Shown here: piece by piece, positions 5,497 to 63,703 of the stretch
Position numbering within the stretch: position 1 is the stretch's first letter
Layout: each line of letters opens with the position of its first letter
DNA from: Olsenella uli
GTDB taxonomy: Bacteria; Actinomycetota; Coriobacteriia; Coriobacteriales; Atopobiaceae
Reading direction: 5' to 3'
DNA: 64,000 nt
NCBI RefSeq assembly: GCF_016899935.1
Contig: NZ_JACJJK010000001.1
Coordinates: forward strand, 310,001-374,000
Notes under the pieces: generated by a model
Told to the model about the DNA's origin: nothing
The model's database searches: none
The model's input: only the letters and a program-made list of their open reading frames with translations
Position numbers and translations under genes: made by a program

Positions 5497-5512
5497 GGCT
5501 CCCCCCCCTGTT

Positions 5513-5533
5513 AATTGGGGACAGTCCCCAATT
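5513..5533. repeat. GGGGACAGTCCCC palindrome, copy A
   Basis: A 21-bp perfect palindrome with core GGGGACAGTCCCC flanked by AATT arms, located 17 bp before the YbaK-like start. It is an inverted copy of the palindrome at 5562-5590. Such palindromes are widespread dispersed repeats of REP type in many bacteria. Confidence 0.9.
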
Positions 5534-5561
5534 CCCACAAATTAGTTATATCAATCGTTTC

Positions 5562-5590
5562 TGTTAATTGGGGACTGTCCCCAATTAACA
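5562..5590. repeat. GGGGACTGTCCCC palindrome, copy B, containing the mnmA stop codon
   Basis: A 29-bp perfect palindrome around GGGGACTGTCCCC with arms TGTTAATT and AATTAACA. The last mnmA codon (TGT) and the TAA stop lie inside it, so the repeat end forms the mnmA C-terminus. Confidence 0.92.
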
Positions 5591-26178: not shown

Positions 26179-27877
26179 TCACATGTAACTGTAGTGCGAC
26201 CACACGTTGCCGTCCTGGTCGACCATGTCGGTCGTGACCGGGTCGTACGTGAAGGTTATCTCCACGGGCTCCAGAACGATGACGGTCGTGGAGTCCGGGC
26301 TCGTCCAGCGTCCCTCCTCCATGTTGACCCAACAGGTCCCGTCCGGATTGAACATGACGTTGCGCGTGGTCCCCTGCTGGTCCCACTCCCCGCTGAGCAC
26401 GACCGGCGTCGACATCGCGTCGTCGTAGGCAGCCACCGCCTCGGGGAAGCTCGCGGAGAGGTCGCCCGCGGCCGCGAGCGAGACCATACGGTACCCGAGC
26501 ACGCTGGCGTCGCTCCGCTGCGCGACCACGTGGTAGTAGCAGAGGCGGGGCGCGTCGGTGCCAGGCAGGGTGAGCATCGCCAGGTCATAGGCGAGGTAGG
26601 TGCCATACGAGGTGAAGTTGCCCGTCCAGACGGTCTCGCCGACGGGGGGCGGTACCCACGCGCACAGTCCAGGTGCCCGTGGACTCGTCGTAGAGGAGCG
26701 CGTCGGTGGCGTTGTGGAGGTAGGAGAGGTCATCGGGCGCCGAGCCGTAGTAGGTCGAGAGAATCGCGCGCACGCCGTCGTCGGTCAGGGTGTAGCTCCA
26801 GCCGGGGTCATGGGACTCGGCCACGCCCAGCGGGTCGCCCGAGACGCTCTGGCCCGTCTCGCCGTGCGTCAGAGCGAACGTGTCGCTCAGCGTGAGCGCG
26901 ATTGCCACGAGCTGGGCGTCGACGGTCACGTCGCCCGCCTGTGCCCGGACGACGGAGATCGTCTGCTGCCAGGCCCGGGGCTCCACGCCAAAGTTGTAGA
27001 GCGCGGCGAGGAGCTCCAGGTTGTCACGGGTCTGGTCGTCCACGGTCGCGGCGTCGCCCGAGACCTGGACGGCGTCGTCGAGGCGAACGTCGGTGAGGCC
27101 GGACAGGCCGGCGAGGTCGACGCTCTCCAGGCCGCAGCCGGTGGCGCTCACCGTCCCCAGGACGTCGCCCTTGGGCAGCGCGAGGGAGGAAAGCCCCGCG
27201 TTTCCGTCACAGCTGACGGACGCGAGGGCACCGTTGGCCGAGAGGTCGAGGCCCGTCAGCTGGTTGGAGGAGCAGTCGAGGTCGGCGAGGTTTGCCTGGC
27301 CGGAGACGTCGAGGCTCGCCAGCTGGTTGGAGGAGCAGTCCAGCGCCGTGAGGTTGGTCAGCCCCGAGAGGTCCAGCTCCGTCAGCTGGTTGCCGGCGCA
27401 GACGAGCTGCGCGAGGTTGGAGAAGGTCGAGATGCCCTCCAGGCTGGTGACGCCGAGGCCGGCAAGGCCGTTGCCCGCGACCGCGTCCGCCGAGGCGTCG
27501 CCGATCGCCGTGACGGCGTCAGCCTCCTCCTGGTCGATCCCGCCGTTGCCGTCGACGTCCACGTTCTGCGCGAGGTAGGCTCGGAAGGCCTCGTCCGGCA
27601 CGTCCTGGAGGTCGAGCACGATCTTGGGACCGAGCAGGTGCGGCAGCAGGAGCCACGCGGCCACGCCGAGCGCCGCGACGACCACCACGACCGCGGCCGC
27701 GACGAGCGCCGCCCGGCGGCGGCCGGGGCGTGCGGGCTTCTCGTACTTCTCGCCAGACGTGCCCTGGCCGAGGCTCGTGGGGTCATCCGCATGGGACCCG
27801 GCTGCGACGGCCGCTCCGCAGCGCGTGCAGAACCTCGCGTTGTCAGGAATGGTGCTTCCGCAGCTTGCACACCTCAT
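26179..27877 (-). pseudogene. Zinc-ribbon, membrane-anchored leucine-rich-repeat protein, frameshifted
   Basis: The start MRCASCGSTIPDNARFC at 27877 is a zinc ribbon with two CxxC pairs, followed by a Pro/Arg linker, one membrane helix (LVAAAVVVVVAALGVAAWLL), a DVDGNGGIDQEEAD calcium-loop-like segment, and about five LRR units of the LTELDLSG/LTALDCSSNQ type. The first frame reads to about 26650 and then becomes nonsense; the fitting continuation VGETVWTGNFTSYG lies in another frame to 26179. The shift falls at six consecutive G (plus strand 26644-26649). It could be decay, a sequencing error or slippage. The C-terminal part resembles an extracytoplasmic sensor domain of unknown function. Confidence 0.78.
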
Positions 27878-28080: not shown

Positions 28081-28092
28081 GGCGAGAAGGAC
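28081..28092 (+). repeat. Boundary motif GGCGAGAAGGAC
   Basis: Perfect consensus, nine bases beyond the uvrC stop and facing it. Confidence 0.6.
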
Positions 28093-60683: not shown

Positions 60684-61314
60684 TCCCGTTGGGATAGCTC
60701 CGCCGGTACCCCTCGTAGGCCTCGCGCACGCGCTCCACGTAGGCGCGCGTCTCCGCGTACTCGATGTCCTCGGGAATCGAGCGCCCCTCGGCGATCCACC
60801 CCCGGACGGTGCCGATGCCGGCGTTGTAGGCGGCGATCGCCTCGTCGATGCTCGAGAGGTGCTCCTGCAGGTAGGCAAGGGTCGCACAGCCGTACTCGAT
60901 GTTGACCTCCGGGTCCGCGAGGCGCGCAGGGTCCCACCGGTCGGGGTCCACGACGCCCTGCGCCACCATGGTCTCCGCCGCCACCGGCATGAGCTGCATG
61001 AGGCCGACCGCGCCCGCCGGGGACACCGCGTCCTCGTCCCATCCGGATTCGCACTGGATGACCGCGCAGACGAGCAGCGGGTCCACGCCGTGGCGCTCGC
61101 TCGCCTCCTCGATCGCCTCCGCGTGGTGCACTGGATAGACGAGGTAGCGGCCGAGGCTCGTCGGCGTCGCGGCCACCACGGCCACGACGGCCAGCGTGAC
61201 GGCGAGAAGGACGACGGGCACCACGCGATACCAGCGTGCGAGGCGCTCGTGCCGGCCCCTCCTGCGGGGCGTGGGGCGCGCCCTCCGGCGCGGCGTCGGC
61301 CTACGCCCAGCCAT
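60670..61314 (-). CDS. Membrane-anchored lytic transglycosylase (SLT domain)
   Basis: A 214-residue protein with a basic N-terminus (Arg-rich, residues 1-28), one signal-anchor helix (VVPVVLLAVTLAVVAVVAA), and an SLT/lysozyme-like domain. The catalytic Glu lies in VIQCESGWDEDAVSPAGAVGLMQ near residue 90, with AIAAYNAGIGTVRGW near 160. It would cleave glycan strands of peptidoglycan outside the membrane. Its start overlaps the coaE stop by 14 bp, so the two are coupled. Confidence 0.9.
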   Translation of the reverse strand: MAGRRPTPRRRARPTPRRRGRHERLARWYRVVPVVLLAVTLAVVAVVAATPTSLGRYLVYPVHHAEAIEEASERHGVDPLLVCAVIQCESGWDEDAVSPAGAVGLMQLMPVAAETMVAQGVVDPDRWDPARLADPEVNIEYGCATLAYLQEHLSSIDEAIAAYNAGIGTVRGWIAEGRSIPEDIEYAETRAYVERVREAYEGYRRSYPNGITGA

Positions 61315-61906
61315 GGCCGTCCCACCAGGCGCGGACCCGCTCGAGCAGGTCCTTCTCGCCCGCCGTGTTGTCGATCACGGTCGTGGCGTGGGAGCGCAGG
61401 TACTCCTCGGAGGGCTGGCGCGCCACGCGCCGGTCAAAGTCCTCGGGGTCCATGCCCCGCCTCTGCGCCCGCGTGCGGCGGACCTCGAGCGGGCATGTCA
61501 CCGCGACCACCTCGTCGGCGAGGTCGAGCATGGGCTTCACGCGGTCGAGCAGCGGGACCTCGACCACGCAGCACACCGGCTCGCGCTGGCCGCAGATGCC
61601 CGAGGTGAGCATGCGGGCGAGCATCGCGCGGATGTGGGGCAGCTCGATCAGCTCGAGCAGCTCGGCGGACTCCGCGTCCGCGAAGGCGCGGCGGGCGAGA
61701 AGGGCGCGGTCGAGCTCGCCGGTCTCCGGGTCCACGAGGTCGTCGCCGAAGGCGTCGCACACCTCCGCCAGGCACTCGGTCCCCGGCGCGAGCACGGCGC
61801 GCGAGACCTCGTCGAGGTCGATGCGCCACGCGCCGAGCCGCTCGAGCTCACGCGCGACCGTCGACTTCCCCGACGCCGTCCCCCCAGCGAGAAACACCGT
61901 GTACAA
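61301..61906 (-). CDS. coaE: Dephospho-CoA kinase
   Basis: A 201-residue P-loop kinase for the last step of coenzyme A synthesis. Walker A is LAGGTASGKSTVARE near the start, the substrate Asp lies in IDLDEVSRAVL near 30, and VVEVPLLDRV and RRTRAQRRGMD (lid Arg residues) follow. The repeat array at 61966-62247 begins about 60 bp upstream of its ATG. Confidence 0.93.
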   Translation of the reverse strand: MYTVFLAGGTASGKSTVARELERLGAWRIDLDEVSRAVLAPGTECLAEVCDAFGDDLVDPETGELDRALLARRAFADAESAELLELIELPHIRAMLARMLTSGICGQREPVCCVVEVPLLDRVKPMLDLADEVVAVTCPLEVRRTRAQRRGMDPEDFDRRVARQPSEEYLRSHATTVIDNTAGEKDLLERVRAWWDGHGWA

Positions 61907-61965
61907 CCCAGACCTCCCTCTCGGACCGTGGACCCATCATCGCACATGCGCGGCAGGGCGGAACG

Positions 61966-62247
61966 TCTAGAATTTTCCGCCCTTGTCCCCACTCTTTCTG
62001 CGAATCGCCGCCCTTGTCGCAATGGTCTCTAGAAAACGCCCCCTTTGTCCGAGCGCGTTCTAAGAAAATCCCCTCTTGCCAAAGGTCACTCTAGTAATCG
62101 CCGCCCTTGTCCGGTTGAAGCGGCCAAAGTCCAGACAAGGACGGCGTTTTTTAGAACGCCTCATGACAAGGGCGGCATTCTCTAGATCGACGCCGGACAA
62201 GGGTGGAAATTCCTAGAATCCCCGCGGCAAGGGCGGCGATTCGTGGA
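61966..62247. repeat. Nine-unit, 31-bp-pitch array with inverted halves
   Basis: The unit is 23 bp, TCTAGAAAAC followed by GCCGCCCTTGTCC, with eight-base unrelated spacers. Five units run left to right, starting at 61966, 61997, 62028, 62059 and 62090. Four inverted units start at 62133, 62164, 62195 and 62226. Every step is 31 bp, about three helical turns; the units at 62059 and 62226 each lack one base. A 20-bp centre (62113-62132) separates the halves. Spacers are not complementary between the arms. It fills the gap between coaE and the ABC ATPase gene. Confidence 0.92.
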
Positions 62248-62273
62248 GCAGGGAGGCGCATCGGCGCGCGGCG

Positions 62274-62915
62274 CTAGCAGGCGGAGACGCGGCCGCCCTC
62301 GACGCGCCAGAGGGTGGGACCGTCGAAGAAGCGCAGCTCGCGCGCGTCATGGGTGGCCCAGAGGACGGTCTTCCCCGCAAGGAGCGGCCCCACGAAGGCC
62401 ATGACGGCGTCCACGGTCTTCTCGTCCATGCCCTTGAGCGGCTCGTCGAAGAGGAGGGTGTTGGCGTCGGCCAGCACGCAGCGCAGGATCGCCACGCGCC
62501 GGCGCTGGCCGCCCGAGAGCTCGCGCACGGGCCGCGCGTCAACGGGCAGCCCGCAGGCCGCGAGCGCCTCCCGCTCGTACGCGAGGAAGCGCGCGAGCGC
62601 CTCGCCGGAAAGTCGCGCCCTTGGCAGGCGGATGTTCGCCGTGGCCGTGAGGTTCTCGCAGAGGCGGTCCTCCTGGAACGTCATGGAGAGACGCACGCCC
62701 GCGCCGCGAACGACCTCGCCCGCGTCCGGCCGCTCCAGTCCCGCGAGCAGCCTCAGAAGTGTGGTCTTGCCTGCGCCGGAGGGGCCCATGAGCACGTGCG
62801 CGCGCCCCGGCTCGAAGCGCGCGGTCACGCCCCTGAGGACGCGCAGCTCGCCATAGCTCTTCTCGACGGCGCGGAGCTCGAGCGTAAGATCGCCGCCTGC
62901 GGACCCCCCGCTCAC
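62274..62915 (-). CDS. ABC transporter ATP-binding protein, SsuB/TauB/ThiZ-like
   Basis: A 213-residue ABC ATPase. Walker A is MGPSGAGKTTLLRLLAG near residue 35, the Q-loop MTFQEDRLCENLTA, the signature ELSGGQRRRVAI, and Walker B NTLLFDEPLKGMDE. It is shorter than usual SsuB. GTG 62915 is chosen because it overlaps the permease stop as GTGA with GGGAGG seven bases upstream. With the permease and binding protein it forms an importer for a sulfonate, nitrate or thiamine-precursor type ligand; which one is not determinable. Confidence 0.88.
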   Translation of the reverse strand: MSGGSAGGDLTLELRAVEKSYGELRVLRGVTARFEPGRAHVLMGPSGAGKTTLLRLLAGLERPDAGEVVRGAGVRLSMTFQEDRLCENLTATANIRLPRARLSGEALARFLAYEREALAACGLPVDARPVRELSGGQRRRVAILRCVLADANTLLFDEPLKGMDEKTVDAVMAFVGPLLAGKTVLWATHDARELRFFDGPTLWRVEGGRVSAC

Positions 62916-63703
62916 GGTCGCGCCTCCCATCGAGCCATGAGACGTCCCATGCCGCGCGTGACGAGCGCCTCCAGCACCACGGACGCCACGACGATCGCTA
63001 CGGTCCAGGCAAAGAGGTCGGGCGTGTCCAGGTAGACCTTGGCGTCGTAGAGGTGCTCGCCGATCGTGAAGTCCGGCAGGCCGATGACCTCGGCCGCGAT
63101 GCCCGCCTTCCAGGAGAGCCCCAGCGCGAGCGTCACGGCGGCGCGGAAGTACGGCAGAACCTGCGAGGCATAGACCAGCCGGACGCGGTCCCAGCCGCGC
63201 ACGCGGAAGACGTCGCACATCTCCAGCAGGCGCGGGTCGGTCTGACGGATGCCCTCGAGCACGTTGGTGTAGACGACGGGCAGCGCCATGACCAGGGCGA
63301 TCACGACCGAGAGATAGCGCGAGGACACCCACAGCAGCACGAGGATCACGAACGACGCCACCGGCACCGCCTTCATCGCGCCCATGAGCGGGGCGAGCAG
63401 CTCGCGAACGACCGGGACGCGGCTCGCGAGCGCCGCGAGCGCGGTGCCGGCCGCGACCGCTGCCACGTACCCGGCGCCGATCCGTCCGAGCGAGACGCCC
63501 ACCGATGCCCAGAACTCCCCCGTCCCCGCCAGCTCCGCGAGGCGTGCCAGCACCTCGAGCGGCCCCACGAGGATGATCCGCGCGTCGATCGCGCGCGCCG
63601 CGACCTCCCACGCCGCGAGCCAGAAGGCTACGCAGACGAGGCGGACGGCCCACGTCCGGAGCCGCCCGCCCTTCTCGTCTCCCCTGTCGCTGGCGCCGGA
63701 CAA
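62912..63703 (-). CDS. ABC transporter permease, SsuC/TauC-like
   Basis: A 263-residue permease with six predicted membrane helices. The EAA-like loop is TDPRLLEMCDVFRVRGWDRV near residue 155, followed by ALGLSWKAGIAAEVIG, typical of SsuC/TauC/ThiX permeases. It begins 2 bp after the binding-protein stop and overlaps the ATPase gene by 4 bp. Confidence 0.9.
   Translation of the reverse strand: MSGASDRGDEKGGRLRTWAVRLVCVAFWLAAWEVAARAIDARIILVGPLEVLARLAELAGTGEFWASVGVSLGRIGAGYVAAVAAGTALAALASRVPVVRELLAPLMGAMKAVPVASFVILVLLWVSSRYLSVVIALVMALPVVYTNVLEGIRQTDPRLLEMCDVFRVRGWDRVRLVYASQVLPYFRAAVTLALGLSWKAGIAAEVIGLPDFTIGEHLYDAKVYLDTPDLFAWTVAIVVASVVLEALVTRGMGRLMARWEARP

Follow-up and report, generated by a model that had tools for sequence, protein, structure and literature searches.

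We found that the array of 23-bp units downstream of an ABC transporter gene in Olsenella uli is one of at least 28 such arrays in this genome. The arrays are intergenic, lie mostly at gene 3′ ends, and consist of two arms of directly repeated units that converge on a 20-bp centre. Relatives carry arrays of the same type, and two sister types with a different unit and a pitch of 41 bp occur in the genus, sometimes at the same sites. Changes in pitch and in centre length correspond to whole turns of the DNA helix, and units resist decay while the spacers between them drift. Units do not covary across the arms, except at the central dyad. These observations argue against a long RNA hairpin and for protein binding on one face of duplex DNA. 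Our best reading is that the arrays are protein-bound boundary or roadblock elements at gene ends, although the protein has not been identified and the function is inferred from sequence alone.

An array of nine phased units in Olsenella uli

The window analyzed here is a 64,000-nt stretch of the O. uli genome (G000; contig NZ_JACJJK010000001.1, positions 310,001 to 374,000). The array contains nine units, five on the plus strand followed by four on the minus strand (Table 1). The steps between first coordinates are 31, 31, 31, 31, 43, 31, 31, and 30 bp, the 43-bp step being the one across the centre. The array lies between an ABC transporter ATPase gene and coaE, both on the minus strand. An earlier note, made from the sequence alone, had described nine units with an exact 31-bp pitch, unrelated spacers, and one change of orientation around a 20-bp centre. 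This observation is confirmed, and the only correction is that the last step is 30 bp.

Table 1 Features of the array and its neighboring genes in the O. uli window
Feature	Coordinates	Strand	Description	Support
Unit 1	61966..61988	+	Outermost of the left arm; A-type, TCYRGGAAWCGCCGCCCTTGTCS	25.8 bits
Unit 2	61997..62019	+		28.9 bits
Unit 3	62028..62050	+		24.1 bits
Unit 4	62059..62081	+	The weakest unit	15.3 bits
Unit 5	62090..62112	+	Innermost of the left arm	31.0 bits
Centre	62113..62132	.	20-bp dyad; the same length recurs in nearly all arrays, the sequence varies	
Unit 6	62133..62155	-	Innermost of the right arm	26.2 bits
Unit 7	62164..62186	-		24.6 bits
Unit 8	62195..62217	-		28.4 bits
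Unit 9	62225..62247	-	Outermost of the right arm; 30 bp from unit 8	27.2 bits
coaE	61301..61906	-	Dephospho-CoA kinase; start about 60 bp from the array	Pfam CoaE PF01121, E 9.4e-34
ABC transporter ATPase	62274..62930	-	Stop 26 bp from the array	Pfam ABC_tran PF00005, E 1.2e-24
ABC permease	62912..63703	-	Same operon as the ATPase	Pfam BPD_transp_1 PF00528, E 1.8e-10

The array is not a chance occurrence. A weight matrix for the unit gives nine hits of 12 bits or more in the array region, against a mean of 0.007 in 300 shuffles of that region (largest 1), and no chain of three units was found in 286,362 bp of array-free DNA (window 1-61900 and 23 viral loci). We note that the matrix was trained on arrays that include this one. 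Independent of the matrix, a two-unit pattern at 31-bp pitch has 83 + 80 matches in the whole genome and 0 + 0 when the same pattern is read backwards, and the 10-base core has 106 matches against 3.

A dispersed family in the genome and in relatives

A DNA search of the O. uli genome found 56 matches. In 19 stretches of this genome, 265 units pass 11 bits. We read 23 distinct arrays in full, and five more were seen as centre matches only, giving at least 28 arrays in 2.1 Mb. All 23 have the same layout, with the CTTGTC ends of the units converging on a centre. Three loci (L021, L023, and L026) repeat the whole two-armed block three times. No called gene spans an array, and overlaps are at most a few bases at gene ends.

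The two-unit pattern occurs in 5 of 40 genomes, including that of O. uli, all of the same genus, and the centre pattern occurs in 4 of 31 genomes of the genus. A scan of a collection described as covering 84,980 species, in which records near the window's genome may be left out, found 46 stretches from Olsenella sp. An270 (taken here as G004), Atopobium sp. UBA1382 (G023), an uncultured Olsenella (CASEQJ; G014), and one 3.8-kb contig of an uncultured Collinsella bin (CASEEY010000155.1; G195, locus L054). The array on the Collinsella-bin contig is nearly identical to that of UBA1382, so the contig is likely mis-binned. Searches of phage and plasmid collections with settings for distant matches returned no match. 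In IMG/VR, 23 stretches hold a single two-unit match each, but none holds a chain by the matrix, and we regard these matches as chance.

The array is not tied to coaE. The neighboring ATPase gene is kept in all nine genomes compared at this site, and the array is present in three of them, G000 (5+4 units), G004 (6+5), and G014 (6+3), and absent from six, G023 and the genus genomes G001, G002, G009, G019, and G022. In G023, G001, and G009, pairs of hairpins of about 80 bp, seen by eye, sit where the array sits in O. uli (L036, L039, and L041). These hairpins are not high-copy elements: one core has 0 or 1 copy and the other 0 to 5 copies per genome. G022 carries two A-type arrays, with no other found (L034, G022:C3:328000-347900). 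Both flanks of one of them match An270, at up to 94.5%, suggesting probable horizontal transfer, and an ORF pair that looks by eye like an IS3-type transposase lies 0.7 kb from the other.

Spacing follows whole helical turns in three array types

Over all A-type loci examined, 520 of 548 same-orientation steps are 31 bp, 13 are 30 bp, and 2 are 32 bp, and 73 of 86 centre steps are 43 bp. Ten deviating steps, expressed as offsets from the mode, cluster on multiples of about 10.5 bp (P 2.5e-5 against uniform offsets; best period 10.5-10.75). Steps explained by whole missing units were left out, duplicated blocks were counted once, and two of the ten offsets assume missing units. We note that these offsets were chosen by hand, so the P value is only indicative.

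A result obtained afterwards says the same. Four other genomes of the genus (G003, G040, G006, and G013) carry B-type arrays, with CTTC units of about TCCCGGAATCGGCGACCTTCTCC, a pitch of 41 bp in 57 of 69 same-orientation steps (31 bp in 8), and a centre step of 43 bp (14 of 15) or 33 bp (1 of 15). C-type arrays, with units of the form GTTAGGAA..CGTCCCC (about GTTAGGAATNCGGGCGCGTCCCC), have a pitch of 41 bp (11 of 11) and a centre step of 43 bp (8 of 8), and occur in G003, G040, and G023. The differences of 10 bp are one helical turn.

We then searched 395 genomes of the order with R1, a pattern built from A-type and two B-type centres, and R2, built from C-type centres, which matched 14 and 13 genomes, respectively. 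Strong matches are in this genus and in the Collinsella-bin contig only. The search uses strict filters and scores few candidates per genome, so counts per genome are lower bounds and misses are possible. Weak single-place matches of R1 and R2 outside the genus (G149, G218, G313, G317, G101, G175, G200, G216, G033, and the R2 match of G195) and in G019, G012, and G020 are not claimed as arrays. In the five of these loci that were scanned there was no chain of units, except for two C-like hits 41 bp apart in G012 (L179), and single C-like hits in G019.

Different types stand at the same sites in different species. The intergenic site of the second array in locus L016 is A-type in G000, G004, G014, and G023, B-type in G040, and empty in G001. 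The first L016 site is A-type in G000, G004, and G014, C-type in G040, and empty of all three types in G023 and G001. The site beside coaD is A-type in G000 and B-type in G040, as judged by matching neighbors read by eye. The site upstream of marR is A-type in G000, G004, and G023, B-type in G006, and empty in G001.

Units are maintained while spacers drift

In 28 orthologous array pairs, conserved unit positions are 88% identical, variable unit positions 62%, spacers 47.5%, and centres 51%, whereas non-orthologous arrays give 84, 52, 33, and 33%, respectively. Six pairs from one unusually conserved locus (L054, L057, L066, and L068) raise these values; without them, conserved positions are 86% identical (1709 of 1992) and spacers 38% (350 of 920). 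Spacers are therefore near saturation while units hold. Detection favors intact units, but gaps that look like one decayed unit (61-63 bp) are only 10 of 548 steps. The pairs share genomes and are not independent. Of the 28 pairs, two have centres that look clearly inverted in place between An270 and the CASEQJ genome (L067/L079 and L071/L073), and a third flagged case is weak.

Comparisons across the arms covered 80 arrays for the spacers. Mirror spacers are no more complementary (3.09 of 8, n 179) than non-mirror ones (3.23 of 8, n 623), and mirror units are no more alike (15.69 of 23, n 265) than other cross-arm pairs (15.66 of 23, n 1161). Arm lengths hardly correlate (r 0.18). In contrast, the innermost units and the centre covary across the dyad at some positions (position 18, T/T 76 and G/G 4; position 21, P 0.0005; position 22, P 0.001), while pairs beyond the innermost show no positive covariation (k = 1 to 3). 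Over the whole inner unit the excess is slight (P 0.065); within single genomes it is significant in G000 (P 0.004) but not in G004, G014, or G023, and related arrays are counted apart. A protein dimer at a dyad or a small central hairpin would both explain this covariation.

Arrays are placed mostly at gene ends

Of 77 arrays, 71 have both neighbors called, and of these 24 lie between convergent, 41 between tandem, and 6 between divergent genes. In comparison, 114 array-free gaps of 60 bp or more give 10, 70, and 34 (Fisher P 3e-5 for convergent and 4.6e-4 for divergent). Gene calls come from a simple codon-usage script, orthologous loci are counted apart, and the background gaps were not freed of orthologous repeats. 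Arrays start a median of 27 bp behind a stop codon (n 89) and end a median of 112 bp before a start (n 53). In 12 of the 89 gene ends, the stop codon lies inside the outermost unit.

A terminator-like hairpin lies between stop and array in 12 of 76 array-adjacent gene ends, against 40 of 110 other ends. We note that the stretch before an array is short (median 37.5 bases examined), which alone lowers the count, and that at least two of the 40 background hits lie in arrays further off. No intrinsic terminator, defined as a GC hairpin with a short loop followed by a T run, was found in window 61850-62350 in a scan that allows loops of 3-8 only and so could not see a hairpin over the centre. A search of window 61000-63000 against Rfam gave only two miRNA-family matches along the inverted arms, both far below gathering score, which we consider an artefact of these arms.

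A protein-bound boundary element is the favored interpretation

We interpret the array as one copy of a dispersed family of duplex-DNA elements. In this view, a sequence-specific DNA-binding protein would bind each 23-bp unit, and because units lie a whole number of helical turns apart (31 or 41 bp; 43 or 33 bp across the centre), all copies would sit on one face and could assemble cooperatively into two filaments that meet at a central dyad. From either flank, a moving machine such as RNA polymerase would meet the same side of every unit in the first arm. Placed right behind stop codons, above all between convergent genes, the complex would most likely act as a two-way boundary, that is, a roadblock that ends or insulates transcription, and possibly a topological barrier. 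Our analysis establishes the geometry, the phasing, the intergenic 3′-end placement, the maintenance, and the presence of different types at the same site, while a bound protein, its cooperativity, and the boundary function are inferred. We consider it rather likely, from phasing and maintenance, that the arrays are bound by a protein as duplex DNA, but we hold the boundary function as a whole with only even confidence.

Several results do not favor the boundary function. No binding protein was found. Arm length does not follow incoming transcription: arms facing a gene 3′ end average 4.18 units (n 83) and arms facing a 5′ end 4.63 (n 49; P 0.07), opposite to a simple polar roadblock. The 41 arrays between tandem genes and the 6 between divergent genes lie where a terminator is less needed. 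In G023, an array upstream of marR is followed by a separate hairpin with a T run, seen by eye. Array-free relatives live with the same gene orders. We considered MarR as the binding protein, because the one array found in G006 lies upstream of marR, but dropped it because that promoter has its own conserved palindrome between array and gene. This palindrome, AAGGTACC...GGTACCTTGACA, was seen by eye at the promoter of marR in a two-ABC-exporter operon, with or without an array upstream (L138, L172, and L137). A promoter reading, with GGAAT and GTC as an ECF-type promoter, was also dropped because the gap is only about 9 bp.

The interpretation in the earlier note is partly supported. Its proposals that selection acts on units rather than on one long hairpin, that spacing follows the DNA helix as expected for cooperative one-face protein binding, and that the array is not a CRISPR agree with our results. 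Its suggestion of an operator or partition site is not supported as a single local site, as the array is one of at least 28, and its alternative of a mobile repeat amplification, taken as neutral, fits poorly because spacers drift while units and geometry stay. Scattered single units without pitch, which the note had set as a finding against its reading, were not seen in the stretches examined, although copy number per arm does vary between species.

Alternative explanations

The least unlikely alternative is a mobile or formerly mobile element, in which the arms are transposase-binding ends, as in Tn7-like transposons, joined without cargo, and types A, B, and C are families with different transposases that prefer gene 3′ ends. 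Sites repeated within each end and 10-bp periodic tolerance of site spacing are known for the CAST transposase TnsB (PMC10201428). Such sites are direct within an end and inverted between ends, and our arrays share this arrangement and helical spacing. The occurrence of the three types at the same sites, the patchy distribution in the genus, and the IS3-like ORF pair in G022 also fit. However, there is no signal of target-site duplication, as 10 of 75 arrays share an exact 5-mer near both ends while shuffled pairs give 15.4. Unit number per arm varies freely, there is no cargo, and orthologous arrays sit at many fixed sites with drifted spacers. Apart from G022, no neighbor of an array looked like a transposase by eye, and Y1 transposases are absent from An270, which has many arrays.

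Nearly as well placed, though also doubtful, is a chromosome-organizing site (nucleoid, condensin, or topoisomerase loading) whose target is chromosome structure rather than transcription. The number of arrays, the preference for convergent gene ends, and the dyad with phased arms are in its favor, and REPs at gene ends are gyrase targets in E. coli (PMC3733652). Against it, no consensus such as parS or matS was seen by eye, and relatives do without the arrays.

Less likely is an RNA-level element, in which the inverted arms form a long hairpin that terminates transcription or protects mRNA 3′ ends, like transcribed REPs. The 3′-end placement, the complementarity of the arms by design, and the covariation at the dyad may suggest this. 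However, mirror units are no more alike than other cross-arm pairs, mirror spacers are no more complementary than non-mirror ones, pairs beyond the innermost show no positive covariation, arm lengths hardly correlate, the spacing follows 10.5-10.75 bp rather than an A-form repeat, and the scan with loops of 3-8 found no terminator-like site in the array.

Neutral tandem expansion is very unlikely: blocks are duplicated in some arrays (L021, L023, and L026) and adjacent spacers are more alike than random ones (0.44 against 0.35), but units outlast spacers, pitch and centre stay fixed across three motif types and several species, and decayed units are rare.

Comparison with known systems

REP and BIME extragenic repeats are likewise dispersed and intergenic, mainly between convergent and unidirectional genes (PMC3733652). 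They also form clade-specific sequence families. Their units are short palindromic hairpins with a GTAG or CGTC foot, whereas the consensus TCYRGGAAWCGCCGCCCTTGTCS is not self-complementary and the units are 23-bp direct repeats at helical pitch with one inversion. We found no link to RAYT (Y1) transposases: PF01797 is absent from An270, is found once in O. uli and twice each in G014 and G023, and is present in 28 of 31 genomes of the genus without relation to arrays. CGTC-type REPs also lack such a transposase (PMC3733652), so this excludes only the RAYT kind. Iteron arrays and clustered operators have direct repeats at near-integral helical turns, but an iteron origin is single and lies beside an initiator gene, while the arrays are dispersed over at least 28 loci beside varied genes with no shared function seen, and have an inverted second arm and a 20-bp centre. 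CRISPR repeats are near-identical, in one orientation, with unique spacers of about 30 bp, whereas here spacers are 8 bp, the orientation flips, and units are about 67-70% alike. Protein roadblocks of transcription, such as LacI, share the mode of action proposed here (PMC10310618, PMC4132739), but the cases known to us are single regulatory sites, not dozens of two-armed arrays.

Literature searches, which reached few subscription papers, found no description of such arrays. We regard them as dispersed extragenic repeats that are here read as binding-site arrays. A bolder possibility, which we hold only tentatively, is a class of bacterial chromosome element not yet described: two-armed, helix-phased nucleoprotein arrays that close gene ends from both sides, maintained by a diversifying family of DNA-binding proteins. 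In this view, the half-site changes (CTTGTC, CTTCTC, CGTCCC) and the pitch jumps by one turn while site and architecture persist, so genomes would switch type in place. If the arrays are protein-bound boundaries, a clade of gut bacteria has a genome-wide, sequence-programmed way to mark gene ends, with a readable geometry rule. The natural presence, absence, and type difference at matching sites in relatives makes this testable in one strain, Olsenella sp. An270, a chicken caecum isolate. The joint change of half-site and pitch would be a natural experiment on how a DNA-binding protein and hundreds of its sites evolve together.

Other repeats in the window

The word GGCGAGAAGRNC occurs 21 times in the window (for example at 28081, 33463, 61201, and 61349) against 0.23 expected from dinucleotide shuffles, and 9 of 28 GGCGAGAAG copies are intergenic although 90% of the window is coding by our gene caller. 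By eye, it forms a hairpin stem in L138, and it recurs in array centres and in the B-type unit. It resembles a DNA-uptake-like word and is partly codon-driven. Two copies of the 26-mer CTGTTAATTGGGGACWGTCCCCAATT, palindromic in part, lie 53 bp apart at window 5508-5586, and a 63-bp tandem repeat is present in three copies at window 27235-27420.
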